Source: Sulfurovum sp. | GTDB taxonomy: Bacteria > Campylobacterota > Campylobacteria > Campylobacterales > Sulfurovaceae | Assembly: GCA_027049035.1 (NCBI GenBank) | Contig: JALTVI010000096.1 | Location: 1 to 39,067, forward strand | DNA: 39,067 nt | Direction of reading: 5' to 3' | Shown here: positions 5,593 to 16,921 of the stretch, one piece after another | How positions within the stretch are numbered: position 1 is the stretch's first letter | Layout of the letters: each line of letters starts with the position of its first letter | Notes under the pieces: model-generated | What the model was told of the DNA's origin: nothing | The model's input: only the letters and a program-made list of their open reading frames with translations | Database searches by the model: none | Made by a program: the position numbers and the translations under genes

Positions 5593-6405
5593 ATGCTGCG
5601 CTTTTTGAAAAAACGGCCGGTTTATGCTGCACTTTTGCTTGTGGGTGCGTATGCGCTCTGGTTCGTACTCCCCTACCTCTTCATTACACCCGACCCCAAG
5701 GCAAAAGGGATGGTGGGCATTGCAGGCGCGCTCAAACAGGCAGATGCAGAAATGATCACCGCAGGCGTGCTTCTGGCGTACATCGGGCTGCTTGGCTGGT
5801 GGAGAGAGGTCGGTTTCGTCAGGGTCAACCGCGGCGGATGGAAGTTTCTGCTGCCCATTTTTCTGCTGGTTGTGCTGATTCTTGGCATTGCACTGGCATT
5901 TTCAAAAGAGAGCGGCTGGTTTCTTGGCTTCTTAGGACCTTTGCAGCTGATGCAGCTGCTTGGGGTGATGCTGCTGCTTGGCTTTGTGGAGGAAGGCATC
6001 TTTAGAGGCGTACTCTTTTACGGCCTCAGCACACGGCTGACGCCCTTTTTTACCGTGCTGGTGACCGCACTGGTCTTTGGTGCGTTCCATATGGTCAACG
6101 TTTTTGTCGGCGCGCCCGTCGATGCATCGTTTTTTCAGTCCATCCACGCCTTTGCGATGGGCTTTCTCTACGCCTCGCTGCGTTTGAGACTGGGCGCGGT
6201 CTGGCCGCTGATGATTCTGCACGCGCTGTGGGATGCTTCACTCTTTGTCATGCAGACAAACCTGCATCTCGCCGCGCCCAACAGCGGCGGAGCGACGCTG
6301 ATTTCAGCGCTCATCGTCGCGGCACCCGCAATGCTTTACGGCATCTTTGTCTACTACAGATGGACACTCTGGCACCGTCAAGCGCTTGTTACCCTGAAAA
6401 AATAG
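5593..6405 (+). CDS. CPBP-family intramembrane glutamic endopeptidase
   Basis: 270 aa with about seven or eight hydrophobic segments. The CPBP (Abi/CAAX-like) motifs are present in order: E133-E134-xxx-R138 (FVEEGIFRGVL), FxxxH around H166 (FGAFHMVN), and H210-xxx-D214 (ILHALWDASL). Family members are inner-membrane proteases, or protease-like proteins in bacteriocin self-immunity, but the substrate cannot be read here. The start is the ATG at 5593, with AAGGAG 6 nt upstream; a TTG 15 nt upstream is in frame but lies before the Shine-Dalgarno site. It stands as a single gene after a 113 nt spacer. Confidence 0.88.
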   Translation: MLRFLKKRPVYAALLLVGAYALWFVLPYLFITPDPKAKGMVGIAGALKQADAEMITAGVLLAYIGLLGWWREVGFVRVNRGGWKFLLPIFLLVVLILGIALAFSKESGWFLGFLGPLQLMQLLGVMLLLGFVEEGIFRGVLFYGLSTRLTPFFTVLVTALVFGAFHMVNVFVGAPVDASFFQSIHAFAMGFLYASLRLRLGAVWPLMILHALWDASLFVMQTNLHLAAPNSGGATLISALIVAAPAMLYGIFVYYRWTLWHRQALVTLKK

Positions 6406-6516
6406 CCACAGCTTTGGTAAATATTATCATTTTGAAATTTTTTTATGCAAAATCATGATATTTACTTTGTTTAAAATTTTAAATAAAATCTATAAAAAAC
6501 ATGGAGTAACCTACAG

Positions 6517-8265
6517 ATGCAGTACCATTCACGTTATTTAGGCAGTTTCATACTTGGAAGTTTGAGTCTGACAGCATTATCCGCTGCGCCGTTTACAGAT
6601 ACGGGCAGCCTCTACAACCAGATGCAGCGCAATGCCCAGCAGTCAGTAAAGAAAAAAGAACATCCAAAATACAATACCAAAGAGAAGCAGCAGGCCAAAC
6701 TCAGCGGCAGACACATGGTAAAGGTCAACGGTTTCAAGATCATTGGAAACGACGAGTTAAGCCAGGCAGAGATCGACAAAGTGCTTGCACCGTTCATCGG
6801 CCGGACAATGAGCACAGAAGAACTTACCCAAGCCGCAAACGCTTTGACGGAATACTATCACAAGAAAGGCTTTTTCGATGCCAACGTGGCACTCATCAAG
6901 CCCTACATCCTCAAAGGCGGCATCATTGTGCTTGTGGTTGACGAAAGGCACCTTGAAAAAGGCGGTATATCGGTTGAGAACAGCGGAGAGAGGATCAAAA
7001 CGCAAAAGGTGCAAAAGCTGTGGGAGAACATCATGAAGCCCGGCGCAATGAAGCAGAAAGATTTCGAACGCGCCATGCTGCTTACCAATGACTTTCCGGG
7101 CATCTCTGCCAAAGCGGACCTCTACTACGGAACCGACGACAAAACTGACGATATGGTAATCACTGTCACGGATGAGGATGTTTTTAACGGCAATATAGAT
7201 ATTGACAATTACGGAAGCTACTACACCGGACAGACCGAAGTAGGCGCTACACTCTACTGGAACAGCCCCACCCAAAACGGTGAGGAGATCGTTGCGCGCT
7301 TCATTTCTACCGGCAAATATTCCAACTATGCATATGTCGATATTGCCGTACCGGTCTTCGATAACGGGATAAGAATAGGAGCCTCTTTTGACTACCTCAA
7401 ATATGAACTGACACATCAAAATCAGGGAGAGGGTGGCGACGGCAGTGCATGGAATGGTACCGCCTATGTCAAATATCCGCTCGTACGCAGCGAAGATTTT
7501 AATGTCGAAACTGAACTTGACTATGTGCATACGAGAATGAAAGACAACGATCTTACAGAAGAGTTGGATAATTCTACCATCGACAAAGGCGTATTTAAAA
7601 TCTCAGGCAACCGCAGTGACGACTTTTTGCTCAATGGCATCACCTACTTTGACGTTTCGCTTACCGTAGGGAACCTGAAGCTGCACAACCAAAAACATAA
7701 AGCCAACGATGACAAGTTTGTCAAGTCGGCAGGAAGTTTCACCAAGTTGAACTTCTCTCTTTCCCGCTTTCAGAACCTCGTAGGCAACCTTTCAAGCAAG
7801 ATCTCCATCGACGGACAGTGGGCAAGCAAAAATCTGGACTCTTTTGAAAAATATTTCATTACAGGGCCATACGCTGTAGCCGGATACCCCGTCGGCGAAG
7901 TTGCCGGAGACAAGGCAGCGGTATTCTATGCCGATCTTAGATACGACTTTTACCAGATGCCATGGGGCGGTGATTTTGAAGTGAATGCGTTCTATACATA
8001 CGGTTGGGCGCAGATCTACAAGAGTCAATCTACCTGGGATGCCTACTACCCGAACAAACCGGACGACAATGAAGTACGGCTGCAAACGGTCGGTCTCGGT
8101 CTCAGCCAGACATGGAGCGACAAGGCTGTCATTCGTGTGAGTGTGGGCAGACAGGTCGGCGGCAACAGACATGCCAAAAGAGCGTACAACGATCCTGTCG
8201 GAAAAGACTACGACCAGTCGACGTCTGACTACAGGGCATGGGTTCAGGCGATTTACTACTGGTAA
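6517..8265 (+). CDS. Two-partner secretion outer-membrane transporter (TpsB, ShlB/FhaC family)
   Basis: 582 aa. A signal peptide (cleavage near LSAAPF) precedes a basic, Gln-rich linker of about 40 residues, then a POTRA domain (about 68-142, VNGFKIIGNDELSQ... to DERHLEKGG), a second POTRA-like segment and a long barrel region of alternating strands ending in aromatic Trp (IYYW), as outer-membrane barrels do. ITGPYAVAGYPVGE is at the place of the conserved VRGY/F loop motif of the Omp85/TpsB superfamily, in degenerate form. The role is to export a partner protein across the outer membrane. The next gene, 120 nt downstream, encodes a large secreted repeat protein and is the natural candidate partner. 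Confidence 0.85.
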   Translation: MQYHSRYLGSFILGSLSLTALSAAPFTDTGSLYNQMQRNAQQSVKKKEHPKYNTKEKQQAKLSGRHMVKVNGFKIIGNDELSQAEIDKVLAPFIGRTMSTEELTQAANALTEYYHKKGFFDANVALIKPYILKGGIIVLVVDERHLEKGGISVENSGERIKTQKVQKLWENIMKPGAMKQKDFERAMLLTNDFPGISAKADLYYGTDDKTDDMVITVTDEDVFNGNIDIDNYGSYYTGQTEVGATLYWNSPTQNGEEIVARFISTGKYSNYAYVDIAVPVFDNGIRIGASFDYLKYELTHQNQGEGGDGSAWNGTAYVKYPLVRSEDFNVETELDYVHTRMKDNDLTEELDNSTIDKGVFKISGNRSDDFLLNGITYFDVSLTVGNLKLHNQKHKANDDKFVKSAGSFTKLNFSLSRFQNLVGNLSSKISIDGQWASKNLDSFEKYFITGPYAVAGYPVGEVAGDKAAVFYADLRYDFYQMPWGGDFEVNAFYTYGWAQIYKSQSTWDAYYPNKPDDNEVRLQTVGLGLSQTWSDKAVIRVSVGRQVGGNRHAKRAYNDPVGKDYDQSTSDYRAWVQAIYYW

Positions 8266-8290
8266 TACTATGGTCAAAAGTGGTGCACCT

Positions 8291-8327
8291 GGTCATTTTG
8301 AAGCAGAAAATAGATTTCCAAATGACC
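8291..8327. promoter_or_regulatory. Inverted repeat between transporter and repeat-protein genes
   Basis: GGTCATTT (8291-8298) and AAATGACC (8320-8327) are perfect 8 bp arms with a 21 nt spacer. It lies about 60 nt before the downstream ATG, so an operator or attenuating hairpin is possible. There is no U-run. Confidence 0.35.
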
Positions 8328-8385
8328 TTACGCTGCTCTTTGAAACCTGCTAAACTGAAACTATCTTAACAACGAGGAGAACACT

Positions 8386-11079
8386 ATGAAACAGATCACT
8401 TTATCCGCAGCGCTTATACCGCTTCTTGGCAGCGCAATATTCGCAAGCGGGTCTACACCCTATCCGGTACCACAACCCATTCCTCAGGCAGTACCTCAAC
8501 CCATTCCGCAGAAAGTGCCAAAACCGATCCCTCAAAAAACACCGAAGCCGGTCTATCAGGCAGTGCCAAAGCCTATTCCGCAGGCCGTACCAAAGCCGAT
8601 CCCGCAGATGGTACCAAAACCCATTCCTCAGAAAACGCCGAAGCCTGTTTATCAAGCGGTACCGCAACCTATTCCTCAAGAAGTTCCAAAGCCTGTGCCG
8701 CAAGCTGTACCAACGCCCATTCCACAAAAGGTACCCAAGAAACTTACCATCCACAAGTACAAAAAACCCTCAAAGCTGCCAAAACAGTACCACGGCAGCA
8801 AACCTGAAGTGATGAAGCATGCCAAGAAACATGCAAAAAAGCATCCTAAAGCCCATAAAGAGAAAATACACCACAAGACACTGTATCCTGTAGATCAAGT
8901 GCACAAAGCCCCTGCCGTGCATACTGCGCACAGTACACCACAGAAGCATACGCCGCATACTGTCGGACGCACGGCATCGAAGCGCATGCCAAATATGGTA
9001 GGAAGTACTGTGATAACAAACATTAATGGTGCTCCACATGTTACAATTCCAATTCAAAAGAATGGAAAAGAAGTAAAAATTCTTGTTCCGGTTGAGATCC
9101 GAAATACAAAACAAGGGAATGTTTTACTTTTCAATGGACAACCGTTCCAGTACCTTAGATCTGTGGGAGTAAAATTTAATGGAAATCAGGCAACTATTAA
9201 TGGGAAAAATATTGGGACAGTAGGTAAAAATCATATACTTAAACTTATATCCAAACCAGTGCATACTTCTACCAGCACTCCAAGCATACCAAAAGGGTAT
9301 CACCAGATCACCGTACCAAACACAGGCAAAGGCGGCGGTAGCAAAACCATTATCGTACCTAACGGACTGAACGCACCAAAAGGACAGGTTGCCACTGGGG
9401 TCATTCCAAAAGGCAGCAGTACCCAGCATCCGTCCACATCACATGCAAAAACACCGGGCGTGATCGCCAAGCCGCACGCTAAAGGCGGAAGCACTGCAAC
9501 CGGCGGTACTCCTGCCATTCCAAAAGGGTATCACCAGATCACCGTACAAAACACAGGCAAAGGCGGCGGATACAAGACGATAGTCGTACCAAATGCCATT
9601 AAACAGCCCAAGCTTCCGGCACAAAGCAACACGGCACCACAGCCAAAGACACCGGCACCGGTCAATAAGAGCAACTGGGTGTATGGCGGCGCAAAGACCA
9701 AAGGACCTGCAGTACCGCAAAAGAGTCAAAATCAGGTAAGTGCTTCGCTACGTCCTACGCCAAACAAACAGCAAACACCACATGTCAATCCACAGCAGTT
9801 ACAGGCTCCGGCTAAAAGTGTTCAAGGGACGCCAACCGTCAACCCTGCGAAACTTCAGGCACCAGCAAAAGGTCCCAAGCAGGTTGCACCAATGGTTCAC
9901 CCTACTCCAAGCAAGCCTGGATATATCAATGGTGTGAAACAAGCAACACCAATGGTTAAACCAACGCCGAGTAAACCAGGATATGTACAAGGTGTCAAAC
10001 AGCAAACACCACATATCAATCCACAGCAGCTTCAAGCACCAGCTAAAAGCCCGAGTGGAACACCAACGGTCAATCCTGCAAAACTGCAGGCTCCGGCAAA
10101 AGGTCCCAAGCAGGTTGCACCAATGGTTCACCCTACTCCAAGCAAGCCTGGGTATGTGAATGGTGTGAAGCAGGCAACGCCAATGGCTAAACCGACACCA
10201 AGCAAACCTGGATATGTACAGGGGGTCAAACAGCAAACACCACATGTCAATCCACAGCAGCTTCAAGCTCCAGCTAAAAGCCCGAGTGGAACACCAACGG
10301 TCAATCCTGCAAAACTGCAGGCTCCGGCAAAAAGTGTTCAAGGGACGCCAACGGTCAACCCAGGCAAGCTTCAGACTCCGGCAATAAGCCCACAGGGAAC
10401 ACCACATATCAATCCACAGCAGCTTCAAGCTCCAGCTAAAAGCCCGAGTGGAACACCAACGGTCAATCCTGCAAAACTGCAGGCTCCGGCAAAAAGCCCA
10501 CACGGAACACCGACTCTTCAGCCAGGAGCGGTTGTGCACAATAAAAACGGTGCTCCTATCGGCAAAGTAGTCAAGCTGCCAAACGGTCAGATGGGTGTAC
10601 AGCCTATCGCTGTGCCGCCGGTTGCTCCGATCGTGACCGGTGCAATACCAACAAAGCAGACAGGACAATCTCCGGCTAAAAGTGTTCAGGGAACGCCAAC
10701 CGTAAACCCTTCAAAGCTTCAGGCTCCGGCAAAAGGTCCCAAGCAGGTTGCACCAATGGTACATCCAACGCCAAGCAAGCCTGGATATGTGAATGGTGTG
10801 AAACAGGCAACACCAACAATTCACTCAGGTAACCAGGGGGGAACTTCTGCGACAGGTTCGACACACAATGCAGGCAGCACAAAGCCTGGCTTCTTTGACA
10901 AAATTAAAAGCTTCCTTTTTGGACCTAAAGAGGGAAGAACGGACAAGGTCATTGAGCCGGGTACCCGTAACAAAGAAGCAGAGGCATATCGTACACATGA
11001 CGCCAAAGAGGTTATGAGCAAAGATGCGATCATCCAAGATGACAAGAATGTCTCTCTGCCGTCTAAGCATAGCAGATAG
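8386..11079 (+). CDS. Secreted Pro/Gln/Lys-rich repeat protein, candidate TPS substrate
   Basis: 897 aa, with signal peptide MKQITLSAALIPLLGSAIFASG. Residues 25-125 are a run of heptads of the form VP(K/Q)PIPQ or TPKPVYQ. A basic His/Lys stretch follows, then a non-repetitive, more ordinary region (about 205-300). Next is a long array mixing units such as GTPTVNPAKLQAPAK, PMVHPTPSKPGYVNGVKQ and QTPHVNPQQLQAPAK, and a charged C-terminus. There is no NPNG/NPNL-type TPS domain and no recognisable membrane anchor. GAGGAGAA precedes the ATG. Position right after tpsB suggests it is exported by that transporter; a disordered, surface-extended or cell-wall-binding role is inference. DNA-level repeats at 9770-10830 make copy number likely to vary. 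Confidence 0.85.
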   Translation: MKQITLSAALIPLLGSAIFASGSTPYPVPQPIPQAVPQPIPQKVPKPIPQKTPKPVYQAVPKPIPQAVPKPIPQMVPKPIPQKTPKPVYQAVPQPIPQEVPKPVPQAVPTPIPQKVPKKLTIHKYKKPSKLPKQYHGSKPEVMKHAKKHAKKHPKAHKEKIHHKTLYPVDQVHKAPAVHTAHSTPQKHTPHTVGRTASKRMPNMVGSTVITNINGAPHVTIPIQKNGKEVKILVPVEIRNTKQGNVLLFNGQPFQYLRSVGVKFNGNQATINGKNIGTVGKNHILKLISKPVHTSTSTPSIPKGYHQITVPNTGKGGGSKTIIVPNGLNAPKGQVATGVIPKGSSTQHPSTSHAKTPGVIAKPHAKGGSTATGGTPAIPKGYHQITVQNTGKGGGYKTIVVPNAIKQPKLPAQSNTAPQPKTPAPVNKSNWVYGGAKTKGPAVPQKSQNQVSASLRPTPNKQQTPHVNPQQLQAPAKSVQGTPTVNPAKLQAPAKGPKQVAPMVHPTPSKPGYINGVKQATPMVKPTPSKPGYVQGVKQQTPHINPQQLQAPAKSPSGTPTVNPAKLQAPAKGPKQVAPMVHPTPSKPGYVNGVKQATPMAKPTPSKPGYVQGVKQQTPHVNPQQLQAPAKSPSGTPTVNPAKLQAPAKSVQGTPTVNPGKLQTPAISPQGTPHINPQQLQAPAKSPSGTPTVNPAKLQAPAKSPHGTPTLQPGAVVHNKNGAPIGKVVKLPNGQMGVQPIAVPPVAPIVTGAIPTKQTGQSPAKSVQGTPTVNPSKLQAPAKGPKQVAPMVHPTPSKPGYVNGVKQATPTIHSGNQGGTSATGSTHNAGSTKPGFFDKIKSFLFGPKEGRTDKVIEPGTRNKEAEAYRTHDAKEVMSKDAIIQDDKNVSLPSKHSR

Positions 11080-11090
11080 CTTCAACCGTT

Positions 11091-11115
11091 GCATACTTCC
11101 CTTGCGGAAGTGTGC
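11091..11115 (+). terminator. Hairpin after the repeat-protein gene
   Basis: GCATACTTCC (11091-11100), loop CTTGC, GGAAGTGTGC (11106-11115): a 10 bp stem with one G-T pair, 12 nt after the stop codon. There is no strong U-run, so it may be a 3'-end stabilising hairpin or a REP-like element rather than a classic intrinsic terminator. Confidence 0.45.
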
Positions 11116-11227
11116 ATAGTCCCACTTAACAACACTCCTCCCCACTTACATTAGAGTCAAGTTATTGGATTTACCCCATCCGTTCTATGCTATGACTGAT
11201 TTTGGGTATACATGAATAAGTTTAGAC

Positions 11228-11812
11228 TTACTTCTTTTTTGCAATCTCAGCTTCAAGAAACTTCAGGTTCTCTTCGGTGCGTTTGATTGCCGGGTCGATC
11301 TTTGGGAGGATGGCTTTGCGCAGTGCAAGCGTCTTTTGGGCATACGCTTTCGATCGCTCCAGATCTTCAAGATTGATGTAGATGCTTGCGATGGCTTCGT
11401 AGGTGTCGGCCAGTGCCGCTTCAGATCCTTTGCCCGCCTTTTCGTAGATGTTAGCTGCCTTTTGCATATAAAGCATCGCCGTGGGGTGCGCTTTGTGCAT
11501 ATAGTAGAGATTGCCCGTATCATAGTAGCGTTTTGCCAGCTTCGGGTCGTTCTCTTTGCGAAGTTTCATGGAAACCTTCAGCGCATGCAGCGCATACTCG
11601 ATGGCACTGTCGAGATTGCCGGCTTTGTAGTACGCCTGTGACAGCGCGGCGTAGTCATTGGCGACACGCGCATCGAACATACCGAATTTCGCGTAGTCGG
11701 CATCGAGTCTTTTGCCCGCTTCTGCGACTGCGCCGTCTGTCTGTACGGCGGATGTCTCCGCTGCTATCAAAGGGATGGCGGAAAGTATCGCCGTATATAT
11801 GATTTTTTTCAT
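11228..11812 (-). CDS. Exported TPR-repeat protein
   Basis: 194 aa. A signal peptide (MKKIIYTAILSAIPLIAAETS) is followed by tetratricopeptide-type helical pairs, for example ALSQAYYKAGNLDSAIEYAL, DTGNLYYMHKAHPTAMLYMQ and AIASIYINLEDLERSKAYAQ. TPRs mediate protein-protein contacts, here presumably in the periplasm. Its ATG overlaps the stop of the small membrane protein by 4 nt (11809-11812), so it is the last gene of a three-gene operon starting with the M16 peptidase. No catalytic motif is seen. A role as an adaptor or chaperone for the peptidase is inference from the operon only. Confidence 0.8.
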   Translation of the reverse strand: MKKIIYTAILSAIPLIAAETSAVQTDGAVAEAGKRLDADYAKFGMFDARVANDYAALSQAYYKAGNLDSAIEYALHALKVSMKLRKENDPKLAKRYYDTGNLYYMHKAHPTAMLYMQKAANIYEKAGKGSEAALADTYEAIASIYINLEDLERSKAYAQKTLALRKAILPKIDPAIKRTEENLKFLEAEIAKKK

Positions 11813-15192: not shown

Positions 15193-15393
15193 TCAGTTGA
15201 AAGACTTGTAGCGCTGAACGACACCGTTCTTGACGATACACTCGCCTTTCTCATCCAAACGCGGCTCGTCCCACTTGAAAGTAACAGGCACGTGTACCGT
15301 GTTGCCTTTGTAGTATCCTCTTCCTACAGAGGAGGCTGCGTTCGGTACGCCCGGGAACTTGTTCATAAGATAGTTTTTACAATCTCTTGAGAA
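15193..15393 (-). pseudogene. 3' remnant of a lipoprotein gene (paralogue of 16935-17279)
   Basis: In one minus-strand frame this stretch reads DCKNYLMNKFPGVPNAASS, then VGRGYYKGNTVHVPVTFKWD, then EPRLDEKGECIVKNGVVQRY and KSFN-stop. It matches the C-terminal half of the lipoprotein at 16935-17279 almost residue for residue. The 5' half, with signal peptide and lipobox, is missing; upstream the sequence runs directly into the YcgJ-like gene at 15363-15767 in another frame. An internal ATG at 15366 could start a 57-residue leaderless-of-signal peptide, but no Shine-Dalgarno site supports it. I read it as a decayed duplicate left by a deletion. Confidence 0.75.
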
Positions 15394-15767
15394 ATCCAGT
15401 GACGCTTTTTTCCGCCGCCGTGTGATGCGTGCGGTACGGTGCCAAACAGCATCTTTGTCCAGTGTGCATCGGCATTGTCATCCCACTTGCTCTTTTTACA
15501 GATCTTTTTGTGTGTGTTACAGTTGACACCGTTGGAGAATGTCCACTCAGTCATGTCCATATGGTCTTTCTCTACCAGTCTTTCAAACTTCTTTGCCGCC
15601 TTGTTGCCAAAATACTCTTTGGTCAACCCGATGGAGATACCGTAAGAGTCTGTACAGAACTTCGCTTTTTTGTCACAGAGAACACCCTTTGATGGTGAGT
15701 AGACGCTTCCGGCATATGCCGCGCCCGAAAGTGCGACGATCGCTGCCATGATTACTGTTTTTTTCAT
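15363..15767 (-). CDS. YcgJ/Fels1-like periplasmic protein with aberrant C-terminus
   Basis: 134 aa from the ATG at 15767 (AAAAGGAAT just upstream). A signal peptide (MKKTVIMAAIVALSGAAYA) is followed by a YcgJ/Fels-1-like domain: VYSPSKGVLCDKKAKFCTDS, then YGISIGLTKEYFGNKAAKK, and a second Cys pair NGVNCNTHKKICKKS. Four conserved cysteines suggest two disulfides. It is about 75% identical by eye to the adjacent 15828-16166 gene. That paralogue stops after KKLFGKVR, whereas this one continues with about 25 unrelated residues (HASHGGGKKRHWISQEIVKT...) reading out of frame into the lipoprotein remnant. Function of the family is poorly known. Confidence 0.78.
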   Translation of the reverse strand: MKKTVIMAAIVALSGAAYAGSVYSPSKGVLCDKKAKFCTDSYGISIGLTKEYFGNKAAKKFERLVEKDHMDMTEWTFSNGVNCNTHKKICKKSKWDDNADAHWTKMLFGTVPHASHGGGKKRHWISQEIVKTIL

Positions 15768-15827
15768 TTTATTCCTTTTATAATCTTTCAAGCCCTTCCT
15801 GTGGGAAAGGCACAGCCTGCTGCAAGT

Positions 15828-16166
15828 TTATCTAACCTTGCCAAAAAGCTTCTTTGTCCAGTGTGCATCGGCGTGCTTGTCCCACTTGCTCTTTTTACAG
15901 ATCTTTTTGTGGGTGTTGCAGCTGACACCGTTGGCAAATGTCCAATCGGTCAGGCTCATATGGTACTTGTCGACCATCTTCTCAAGATTCTTTGCAGCCT
16001 TGCTGCCAAGATACTCTTTTGTAAGCCCGATGGAGATGCTGTAGGAGTCGGCACAGAACTTTCCTTTTTTGTCACAGATGACACCCTTTGAGGGCGAATA
16101 GACGCTTCCTGCGTATGCTGCGCCCGAAAGCGCAACAATTGCAGCCATAATCACTGTTTTTTTCAT
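15828..16166 (-). CDS. YcgJ/Fels1-like periplasmic protein
   Basis: 112 aa. The signal peptide is nearly identical to that of the downstream copy. The mature domain has the four-Cys arrangement ICDKKGKFCADS ... GVSCNTHKKICKKS, and the LTKEYLGSKAAKNLEKM block typical of YcgJ/Fels-1 prophage-like small exported proteins. AAAGGATAAG precedes the ATG. Tandem duplication with 15363-15767 is clear from protein and DNA similarity, including the signal sequences. Role unknown; linkage to an LprI-like domain in the next gene hints at lysozyme inhibition or envelope stress, which is inference. Confidence 0.82.
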   Translation of the reverse strand: MKKTVIMAAIVALSGAAYAGSVYSPSKGVICDKKGKFCADSYSISIGLTKEYLGSKAAKNLEKMVDKYHMSLTDWTFANGVSCNTHKKICKKSKWDKHADAHWTKKLFGKVR

Positions 16167-16200
16167 TTGCTTATCCTTTTACTCTTTTGTTCGTATTGTT

Positions 16201-16278
16201 TTACAATACACCCATAAATCGCAGTACGACGACGATCACGACAACGGTCAACGCAGTATAGATCAAGTTGCCTATCAT
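16201..16278 (-). CDS. 25-residue single-helix membrane peptide
   Basis: The minus strand from the ATG at 16278 reads MIGNLIYTALTVVVIVVVLR followed by FMGVL and a stop at 16201. The whole peptide is one hydrophobic helix. AAGGGGATAAA directly precedes the ATG at ideal spacing, and it fills the gap between the LprI-YcgJ fusion gene and the YcgJ gene on the same strand. A GTATTG/CAATAC hairpin (about 16193-16209) overlaps its end. Family unknown. The strong ribosome binding site and TM composition argue for a real small protein. Confidence 0.55.
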   Translation of the reverse strand: MIGNLIYTALTVVVIVVVLRFMGVL

Positions 16279-16294
16279 TTTATCCCCTTTATGT

Positions 16295-16921
16295 TTATCT
16301 GAACAGTCTGTTGGTATAGTAGCCGTTCACAGGCGCGCCTGAGTAGCGGTTCTGGTAACAGCGGTAGCGGCGCGAATTACAGTAGATACCGTTGGAGAGT
16401 GTGTAGGCTTTGGTGTCCATATTGTACCGGTTGATGTTTTTGCGCAGCCGTTTTGCCGCCTTGCTGCCGAGATACTCCTTTGTAAACCCGATGGAGATGC
16501 CGTAGGAGTCGGCGCAGAACTTGCCTTTTCTGTCGCAGACAATGCCGCGCTGAGGAAAGAATACCGTCGGACGCTTGGCAGGTCTGTATTTATATCCGCC
16601 GCCGCGGTAGCTGTCTATCTGTCTGCGCAGCACATCGTTGCGCTGTCGCGTAAGTCGGATAAGGCACGATTCGTTCGCGCCGCACCGGCGGTTTCTGTGC
16701 TCTATCCAGTGGCGCTGCTGCGTCTTGATGCCCGGGATGGTATAGCGCGCTTCGTGGTAGAGGCGTCCCATTTCCGTATCGAGACGGTCAAGCGTACGGT
16801 TGTAGCAGATGGCGTTTTCGATGGGCGTACGCGCCTGCGCACAGTTGAAGCTCGCTGCATTCCCGATGGCAGGCAGTGCCGCCAGCAGCACTGCCGCAGC
16901 GATAAATCGGACCTTACTCAT
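16295..16921 (-). CDS. LprI-like domain fused to a YcgJ/Fels1-like domain
   Basis: 208 aa. The signal peptide (cleavage near GNAASF) is followed by an LprI/DUF1311-type domain at about 23-105: FNCAQARTPIENAICYNRTL, then RLYHEARYTIPGIKTQQRHW, then RCGANESCLIRLTRQRND. LprI was described as a lysozyme inhibitor, and this domain carries its paired cysteines. After a Gly/Tyr/Lys linker, residues 118-208 form a YcgJ-like domain (VFFPQRGIVCDRKGKFCADS, GFTKEYLGSKAAKRLRK) homologous to the two genes downstream. I infer a periplasmic protein, perhaps countering lysozyme. Both domains are complete. It overlaps no neighbour and shares strand and spacing with the cluster. Confidence 0.8.
   Translation of the reverse strand: MSKVRFIAAAVLLAALPAIGNAASFNCAQARTPIENAICYNRTLDRLDTEMGRLYHEARYTIPGIKTQQRHWIEHRNRRCGANESCLIRLTRQRNDVLRRQIDSYRGGGYKYRPAKRPTVFFPQRGIVCDRKGKFCADSYGISIGFTKEYLGSKAAKRLRKNINRYNMDTKAYTLSNGIYCNSRRYRCYQNRYSGAPVNGYYTNRLFR

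Follow-up and report, generated by a model that had tools for sequence, protein, structure and literature searches.

Can an outer-membrane transporter of the TpsB/ShlB type export a neighbour that carries no TPS domain? In characterised systems recognition goes through this domain (PMC5422565), which weighs against such export, and in the open papers that we searched no TpsB with a non-TPS partner or neighbour was reported. The question is raised by a locus of a Sulfurovum sp. draft genome (2.49 Mb, 92 contigs) whose close kin form a large genus. The window analysed here is a whole contig of this draft (C75, JALTVI010000096.1; 39,067 nucleotides). We infer that a re-purposed TpsB exports the adjoining repeat protein, which has no such domain, a reading that we hold to be quite possible, if somewhat short of probable.

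A TpsB-type transporter beside a repeat protein

The transporter is a 582-residue Omp85 protein of the TpsB/ShlB type, encoded on the forward strand at positions 6517–8265 and identified by Pfam, AlphaFold2 and Foldseek. On the same strand and 120 bp downstream, positions 8386–11079 encode an exported 897-residue repeat protein rich in Pro, Lys and Gln and without a TPS domain, as judged from its reading frame, Pfam searches and composition. The first-pass annotation had described such a pair, and both reading frames were found as it had them, with domain searches in agreement. It had also called the neighbour an exported Pro/Lys/Gln repeat protein, which is borne out by the signal peptide-like N-terminus, the composition and the silence of TPS HMMs.

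The 120 bp gap and the common strand are poor evidence of co-function. Just 5′ of the repeat gene lies a weak promoter-like match of its own (TTGAAA-16-TATCTT, 8340–8367, forward strand), and its ATG is preceded by GAGGAG, which resembles a ribosome-binding site (8374–8379, forward strand). Promoter-like matches in this region are only mildly more frequent than in shuffled sequences. That the repeat gene has a promoter-like site and ribosome-binding site of its own argues against the export reading. The promoter-like match speaks for a rival explanation that we consider somewhat unlikely, namely that TpsB still works, but on another substrate or as an outer-membrane pore with a loosened loop L6, while the repeat protein, exported by Sec and unrelated to it, resides in the periplasm or binds the wall; its cationic composition would suit binding to the wall or to polysaccharides.

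So far a single genome is known to carry the pair. No orthologues of it turned up among 175 genomes of the family or 397 sampled from the class, nor, by peptide patterns, in 84,980 species. The restriction to a single genome, with no independent recurrence of the pair, also counts against export of the repeat protein by TpsB.

The transporter keeps the TpsB fold on a long branch

Three Pfam families matched the transporter over cut-off: ShlB (PF03865, 1e-16), POTRA_2 (PF08479, 1.4e-10) and POTRA (PF07244, 4.1e-9). Its layout comprises a signal peptide (residues ~1–23), plug helix H1 (29–41), POTRA1 (~67–155) and POTRA2 (~162–219), followed in the AlphaFold2 model by a barrel of 16 strands (223–581); the last residue is aromatic. 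The model, built from a 42-sequence alignment, has a mean pLDDT of 87 and a pTM of 0.83, and its top Foldseek match was CdiB (6wim, TM 0.70/0.75), followed by FhaC (4ql0). Signal peptide, plug helix, two POTRAs and a 16-strand barrel are shared with the type Vb TpsBs FhaC, CdiB and HMW1B/EtpB. On the strength of this anatomy and of the matches to CdiB and FhaC, the window protein is by ancestry as well as by fold a homologue of the TpsBs, but in view of its lid-lock residues (see below) not a typical member.

Relatives are distant, at about 20–32% identity overall; the best identity was ~32% among the 80 nearest loci, taken from the genomes of 84,980 species. The nearest sequences (27–32%) belong to YDG-repeat TpsA/TpsB pairs of Betaproteobacteria, Chlorobiaceae, Pseudomonas and the window's own class, which, unlike the window pair, adjoin a canonical TPS-domain TpsA and keep the Arg/Lys and Asp of the lid lock discussed below. 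In a tree of 114 TpsBs the window protein attaches basally to a clade with 80 other members (support 0.95), on the longest terminal branch (1.36 substitutions per site, against a median of 0.30).

The extent of change could be taken as decay. In that explanation TpsB is an orphan left after loss of its TpsA, a decaying or non-functional exporter in which the loss of Arg455 and Asp494 marks relaxed selection. Eleven of 37 near-invariant positions are altered in the window TpsB, against a median of one in its relatives, and orphan TpsBs without a visible TpsA do exist (L126, L147, L162 and L183). However, the reading frame runs through all 582 codons without a stop or frameshift along a branch of 1.36, although ~4.5% of random changes in tpsB would create a stop, and the structure prediction is highly confident, including H1, the POTRAs, 16 strands and the aromatic terminal residue. 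We regard decay as distinctly unlikely. A reading frame and fold that stay intact on the longest branch speak for the export reading; an open frame over such a branch implies that some function was kept, which would also suit work on another substrate.

Both lid-lock residues are replaced

In FhaC, a salt bridge between R450 and D492 joins the two residues of the lid lock, and this Arg-Asp lock has been described as common to every known Omp85 structure (Maier et al. 2015, PMC4490367). When we tested the window TpsB for the pair, formed by an Arg in loop L6 and an Asp on strand 13, we found Ala455 and Thr494. Alignment and model place L6 at residues 437–465 between strands 11 and 12 (7825–7911, forward strand), and its tip reads AVAGYP instead of (V/I)RG(Y/F). 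In the alignment, codon 455 (GCC, Ala; 7879–7881, forward strand) stands at the conserved Arg/Lys position, where 115 relatives have R in 102 and K in 13 cases, with one gap. Codon 494 (ACA, Thr; 7996–7998, forward strand) stands at the conserved Asp of the strand-13 FxDxG motif, which is D in 99% of relatives.

An alignment slip does not account for these replacements, since the flanking F492 and G496 are kept. In the model, Ala455 falls in the loop that joins strands 11 and 12, and Thr494 on strand 13, as expected for L6 and FxDxG. Among 114 full-length TpsBs, 102 combine R with D and 11 combine K with D, and A with T occurs in the window protein only. As far as aligned sequences can tell, the absence of both lid-lock residues in one of 114 TpsBs is a new observation.

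A close parallel is the engineered FhaC mutant R450A (PDB 3njt), which has the same Arg-to-Ala change at the L6 tip. The window differs in that the change is natural and that the partner Asp is replaced as well, by Thr. According to a review, activity depends on L6 and its VRGY motif, which are essential, and release of L6 from the wall gives a larger channel (PMC5422565). Because the motif is reported as essential, loss of the Arg could mean that secretion was lost, as the decay explanation would have it. Replacement of both salt-bridge partners, however, looks more like a compensated change than random decay, and the joint loss of two interacting residues, found once in 114, speaks for the export reading.

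The repeat protein is Pro-rich, Cys-free and under constraint

The repeat protein contains 144 Pro, 105 Lys and 77 Gln among its 897 residues and no Cys; its predicted pI is 10.6. Electrostatic matching to TpsB (pI 5.6) was considered and set aside, as this TpsB pI is the 30th lowest of 117 and thus not diagnostic. Measured by sequence against the traits of a TpsA, the protein has a signal-like N-terminus, lacks Cys and is Pro-rich. Little structure is predicted. The absence of Cys together with the scarcity of structure matches what is generally seen in the passengers of type V systems (PMC5422565) and so favours the export reading.

Directly after the signal peptide-like N-terminus, repeat and sequence searches identified an octapeptide array (VPKPIPQx) of 11 clear units (8467–8729, forward strand), which would be expected to form an extended polyproline-type rod. 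These Pro octapeptides occupy the place where a TpsA has its TPS beta-helix domain with the NPNG turn, and no TPS HMM matched the protein. The array is followed by a Lys/His-rich stretch, residues 206–292, two GYHQITV repeats and long repeats of 77 and 18 residues; the C-terminal segment has a short hydrophobic patch (FFDKIKSFLFG). The long repeats, detected by TRF (9765–10511, forward strand), consist of a 231-bp/77-residue unit and 54-bp/18-residue units with the motifs NPxxLQAPAK and TPSKPGY.

Residues 206–292 (9001–9261, forward strand) form the only low-proline, globular-looking segment in a single-sequence AlphaFold2 prediction. The first-pass annotation had proposed residues 205–300 as a possible cryptic secretion domain. 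Modelling gave a small beta-rich unit of low confidence (pLDDT 60); the model of residues 206–292 had no Foldseek hit with E<0.1, and region 205–300 matched nothing over the Pfam cut-off and nothing among PDB sequences.

Two copies of the 77-codon repeat differ by 24 synonymous and five non-synonymous codon changes (dN 0.054, dS 0.73), and 27 of their 35 base differences fall at third positions. The low dN relative to dS and the third-position excess show that the repeats are coding and under purifying selection in frame; constraint on the amino acids of the repeat gene is in keeping with the export reading.

No Pfam family matched the protein over cut-off, NCBIfam and PHROGs yielded nothing, and no relatives were found in the family, the class sample or the genomes of 84,980 species. 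Apparent relatives in G014, G072 and G093 proved to be weak low-complexity matches, the one in G014 being a TonB-like protein. Another in G375, which seemed to lie 3 kb from a TpsB, turned out to be an MSRG repeat read in antisense; the TpsB in question is accompanied by a canonical TpsA. The proline-rich spacers of TonB/TolA-type proteins share Pro/Lys-rich extended repeats with the repeat protein, which differs in its length of 897 residues, its export and the lack of a TonB domain, TonB-like matches being of low complexity only.

TpsA partners adjoin nearly all related transporters

The TPS HMMs used for neighbour counts were built from the TpsA proteins of relatives; PF05860 served as an outside check on the window's own genome only. 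No TPS domain was found in the window by these HMMs. In the genome PF05860 occurs once; it lies on contig C85, where a second TpsB directly precedes it. A YDG-type TpsA query against the same genome returned nothing. The C85 TpsA (L022:6475–13200) has an in-frame TAG right after its TPS domain, while its homologue in G110 (L021:1537–8433) reads through intact.

The first-pass annotation had offered, as one of two options, that the partner lies elsewhere. This is disfavoured, since the genome's sole TPS-domain gene adjoins its own TpsB and is interrupted; we rejected it as a remote partner. That the genome holds no other free TPS-domain partner argues for the export reading. If TpsB worked on another substrate, the candidates would be the C85 TpsA or a protein with an unrecognised signal. 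TpsBs of relaxed partner specificity have been reported (BcpB, PMC10449530), which lends this explanation some support; the adjacent TpsB and the interruption after the TPS domain speak against the C85 protein in this role.

It would also be conceivable that the system is an ordinary two-partner one, its TpsA lying in an unassembled part of the genome and the repeat protein being a bystander. The draft does consist of 92 contigs, but its completeness is 99.78%, the TpsA of relatives is adjacent rather than remote, and the window extends to both sides of tpsB without a TpsA. Such a gap would moreover leave the loss of the lid lock unexplained, and we consider this explanation highly improbable.

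In the family, 16 loci besides that of the window match ShlB strongly, C85 among them, and at every one a TPS-domain gene lies no more than 1.5 kb away. In the wider class, 19 of 20 TpsB loci have one immediately upstream of tpsB, and among the 80 nearest loci elsewhere it is present in the examined flank in 71. At three or four others of the 80 a TpsA-like repeat frame is cut by the contig end, and about four look orphan. Since relatives nearly always adjoin a canonical TpsA, this pairing is ancestral and, going by gene neighbourhoods, the non-TPS pairing in one genome is a derived exception.

Two observations had been named in advance as able to overturn the idea of a new kind of partner. 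Relatives beside a canonical TpsA were indeed seen; being distant (about 20–32% identical) and all retaining the lock, they show the ancestral state and do not refute a derived pairing. The other, a repeat protein in a genome that lacks tpsB, was not seen; the searches returned no relative of this protein at all.

Two further groups of ShlB-type loci deserve mention. The four candidate orphans listed above lack a TPS-domain gene in the examined flank, and the full-length TpsBs among them from L126, L147 and L162 keep Arg/Lys and Asp. Three more ShlB loci of the family encode barrels of another kind, of ~400 residues and without POTRA domains (L018:5783–6991, reverse strand; L019:7900–9114, reverse strand; L223:5271–6452, forward strand). 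PF03865 matched at 4e-19 in L018, the N-terminal motif resembles CxxGxCGVxxPxIPTDIQNN, two aligned members keep the lid-lock Lys and FYDYG, and no TPS-domain gene was found near any of the three.

A sister genome lacks both genes at the same site

Synteny showed that a stretch holding just tpsB and the repeat gene (6406–11234) is absent at the same site of a sister genome, G086. This genome carries the same flanking genes, the neighbouring M16 peptidase being 83–85% identical. At its junction, ~80–90 bp separate the end of the CPBP-protease gene (window 6325–6405, 82% DNA identity) from that of the TPR gene (window 11228–11235), and no trace of tpsB or the repeat gene was found at the syntenic site. 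As G086 lacks exactly these two, the genes are present or absent together. A two-gene unit missing at the same site, with both genes on one strand and 120 bp apart, speaks for the export reading, and joint gain or loss speaks against the explanation that TpsB serves another substrate.

Joint loss of two chance neighbours in one G086 deletion is possible. Gain and loss of the unit are not distinguishable, because G086 is itself rearranged upstream of the junction, where other DNA stands in place of the CPBP gene body and the greater part of the NlpC gene. We saw no inverted repeats flanking the 6406–11234 unit. With no close relative of either protein found, the link between TpsB and the repeat protein rests on adjacency and one presence/absence event.

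The DNA that replaces most of the NlpC/P60 and CPBP genes in G086 (L103:1570–3910) holds a Mutator-type transposase fragment, a DUF3955 protein and a 392-residue membrane protein without a family. Elsewhere in the window (15363–16921, reverse strand), three neighbouring small exported proteins look mutually paralogous, and G086 has matching copies at L104:11564–12496.

A possible type Vb-like export module

Taken together, these results suggest a changed export system. As in type Vb systems, a gene for a large exported protein adjoins tpsB; in contrast to them, the neighbour lacks a TPS domain, the lid-lock residues are replaced, and the genes lie 120 bp apart, with a separate promoter-like site. 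The pair is thus an atypical, possibly type-Vb-like module and should not be called a two-partner system. The other option of the first-pass annotation, that a new substrate class uses this transporter, may hold. More specifically, a naturally unlocked TpsB exporting a non-beta-helical polyproline/lysine repeat protein would be a variant of type Vb that recognises, in a new way, a new class of substrate; we advance this tentatively and with some doubt.

In the export reading, the repeat protein would cross the inner membrane by its Sec signal and, being Pro-rich and Cys-free, would probably remain unfolded in the periplasm. The POTRA domains may then take it up by means other than a TPS beta-helix, perhaps through extended segments such as residues 206–292. 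Passage would follow through a barrel whose unpinned L6 could leave the channel wider or permanently looser. On reaching the surface, the protein may serve as a coat or adhesive of extended shape and strong positive charge.

If the repeat protein is exported by TpsB, a TPS domain would not be required for TpsB-dependent export, and this would bear on how POTRA domains choose their substrates. A natural TpsB that lacks the lock and keeps the fold makes it possible to ask directly whether translocation, channel gating or only TPS-type substrates require the lock.
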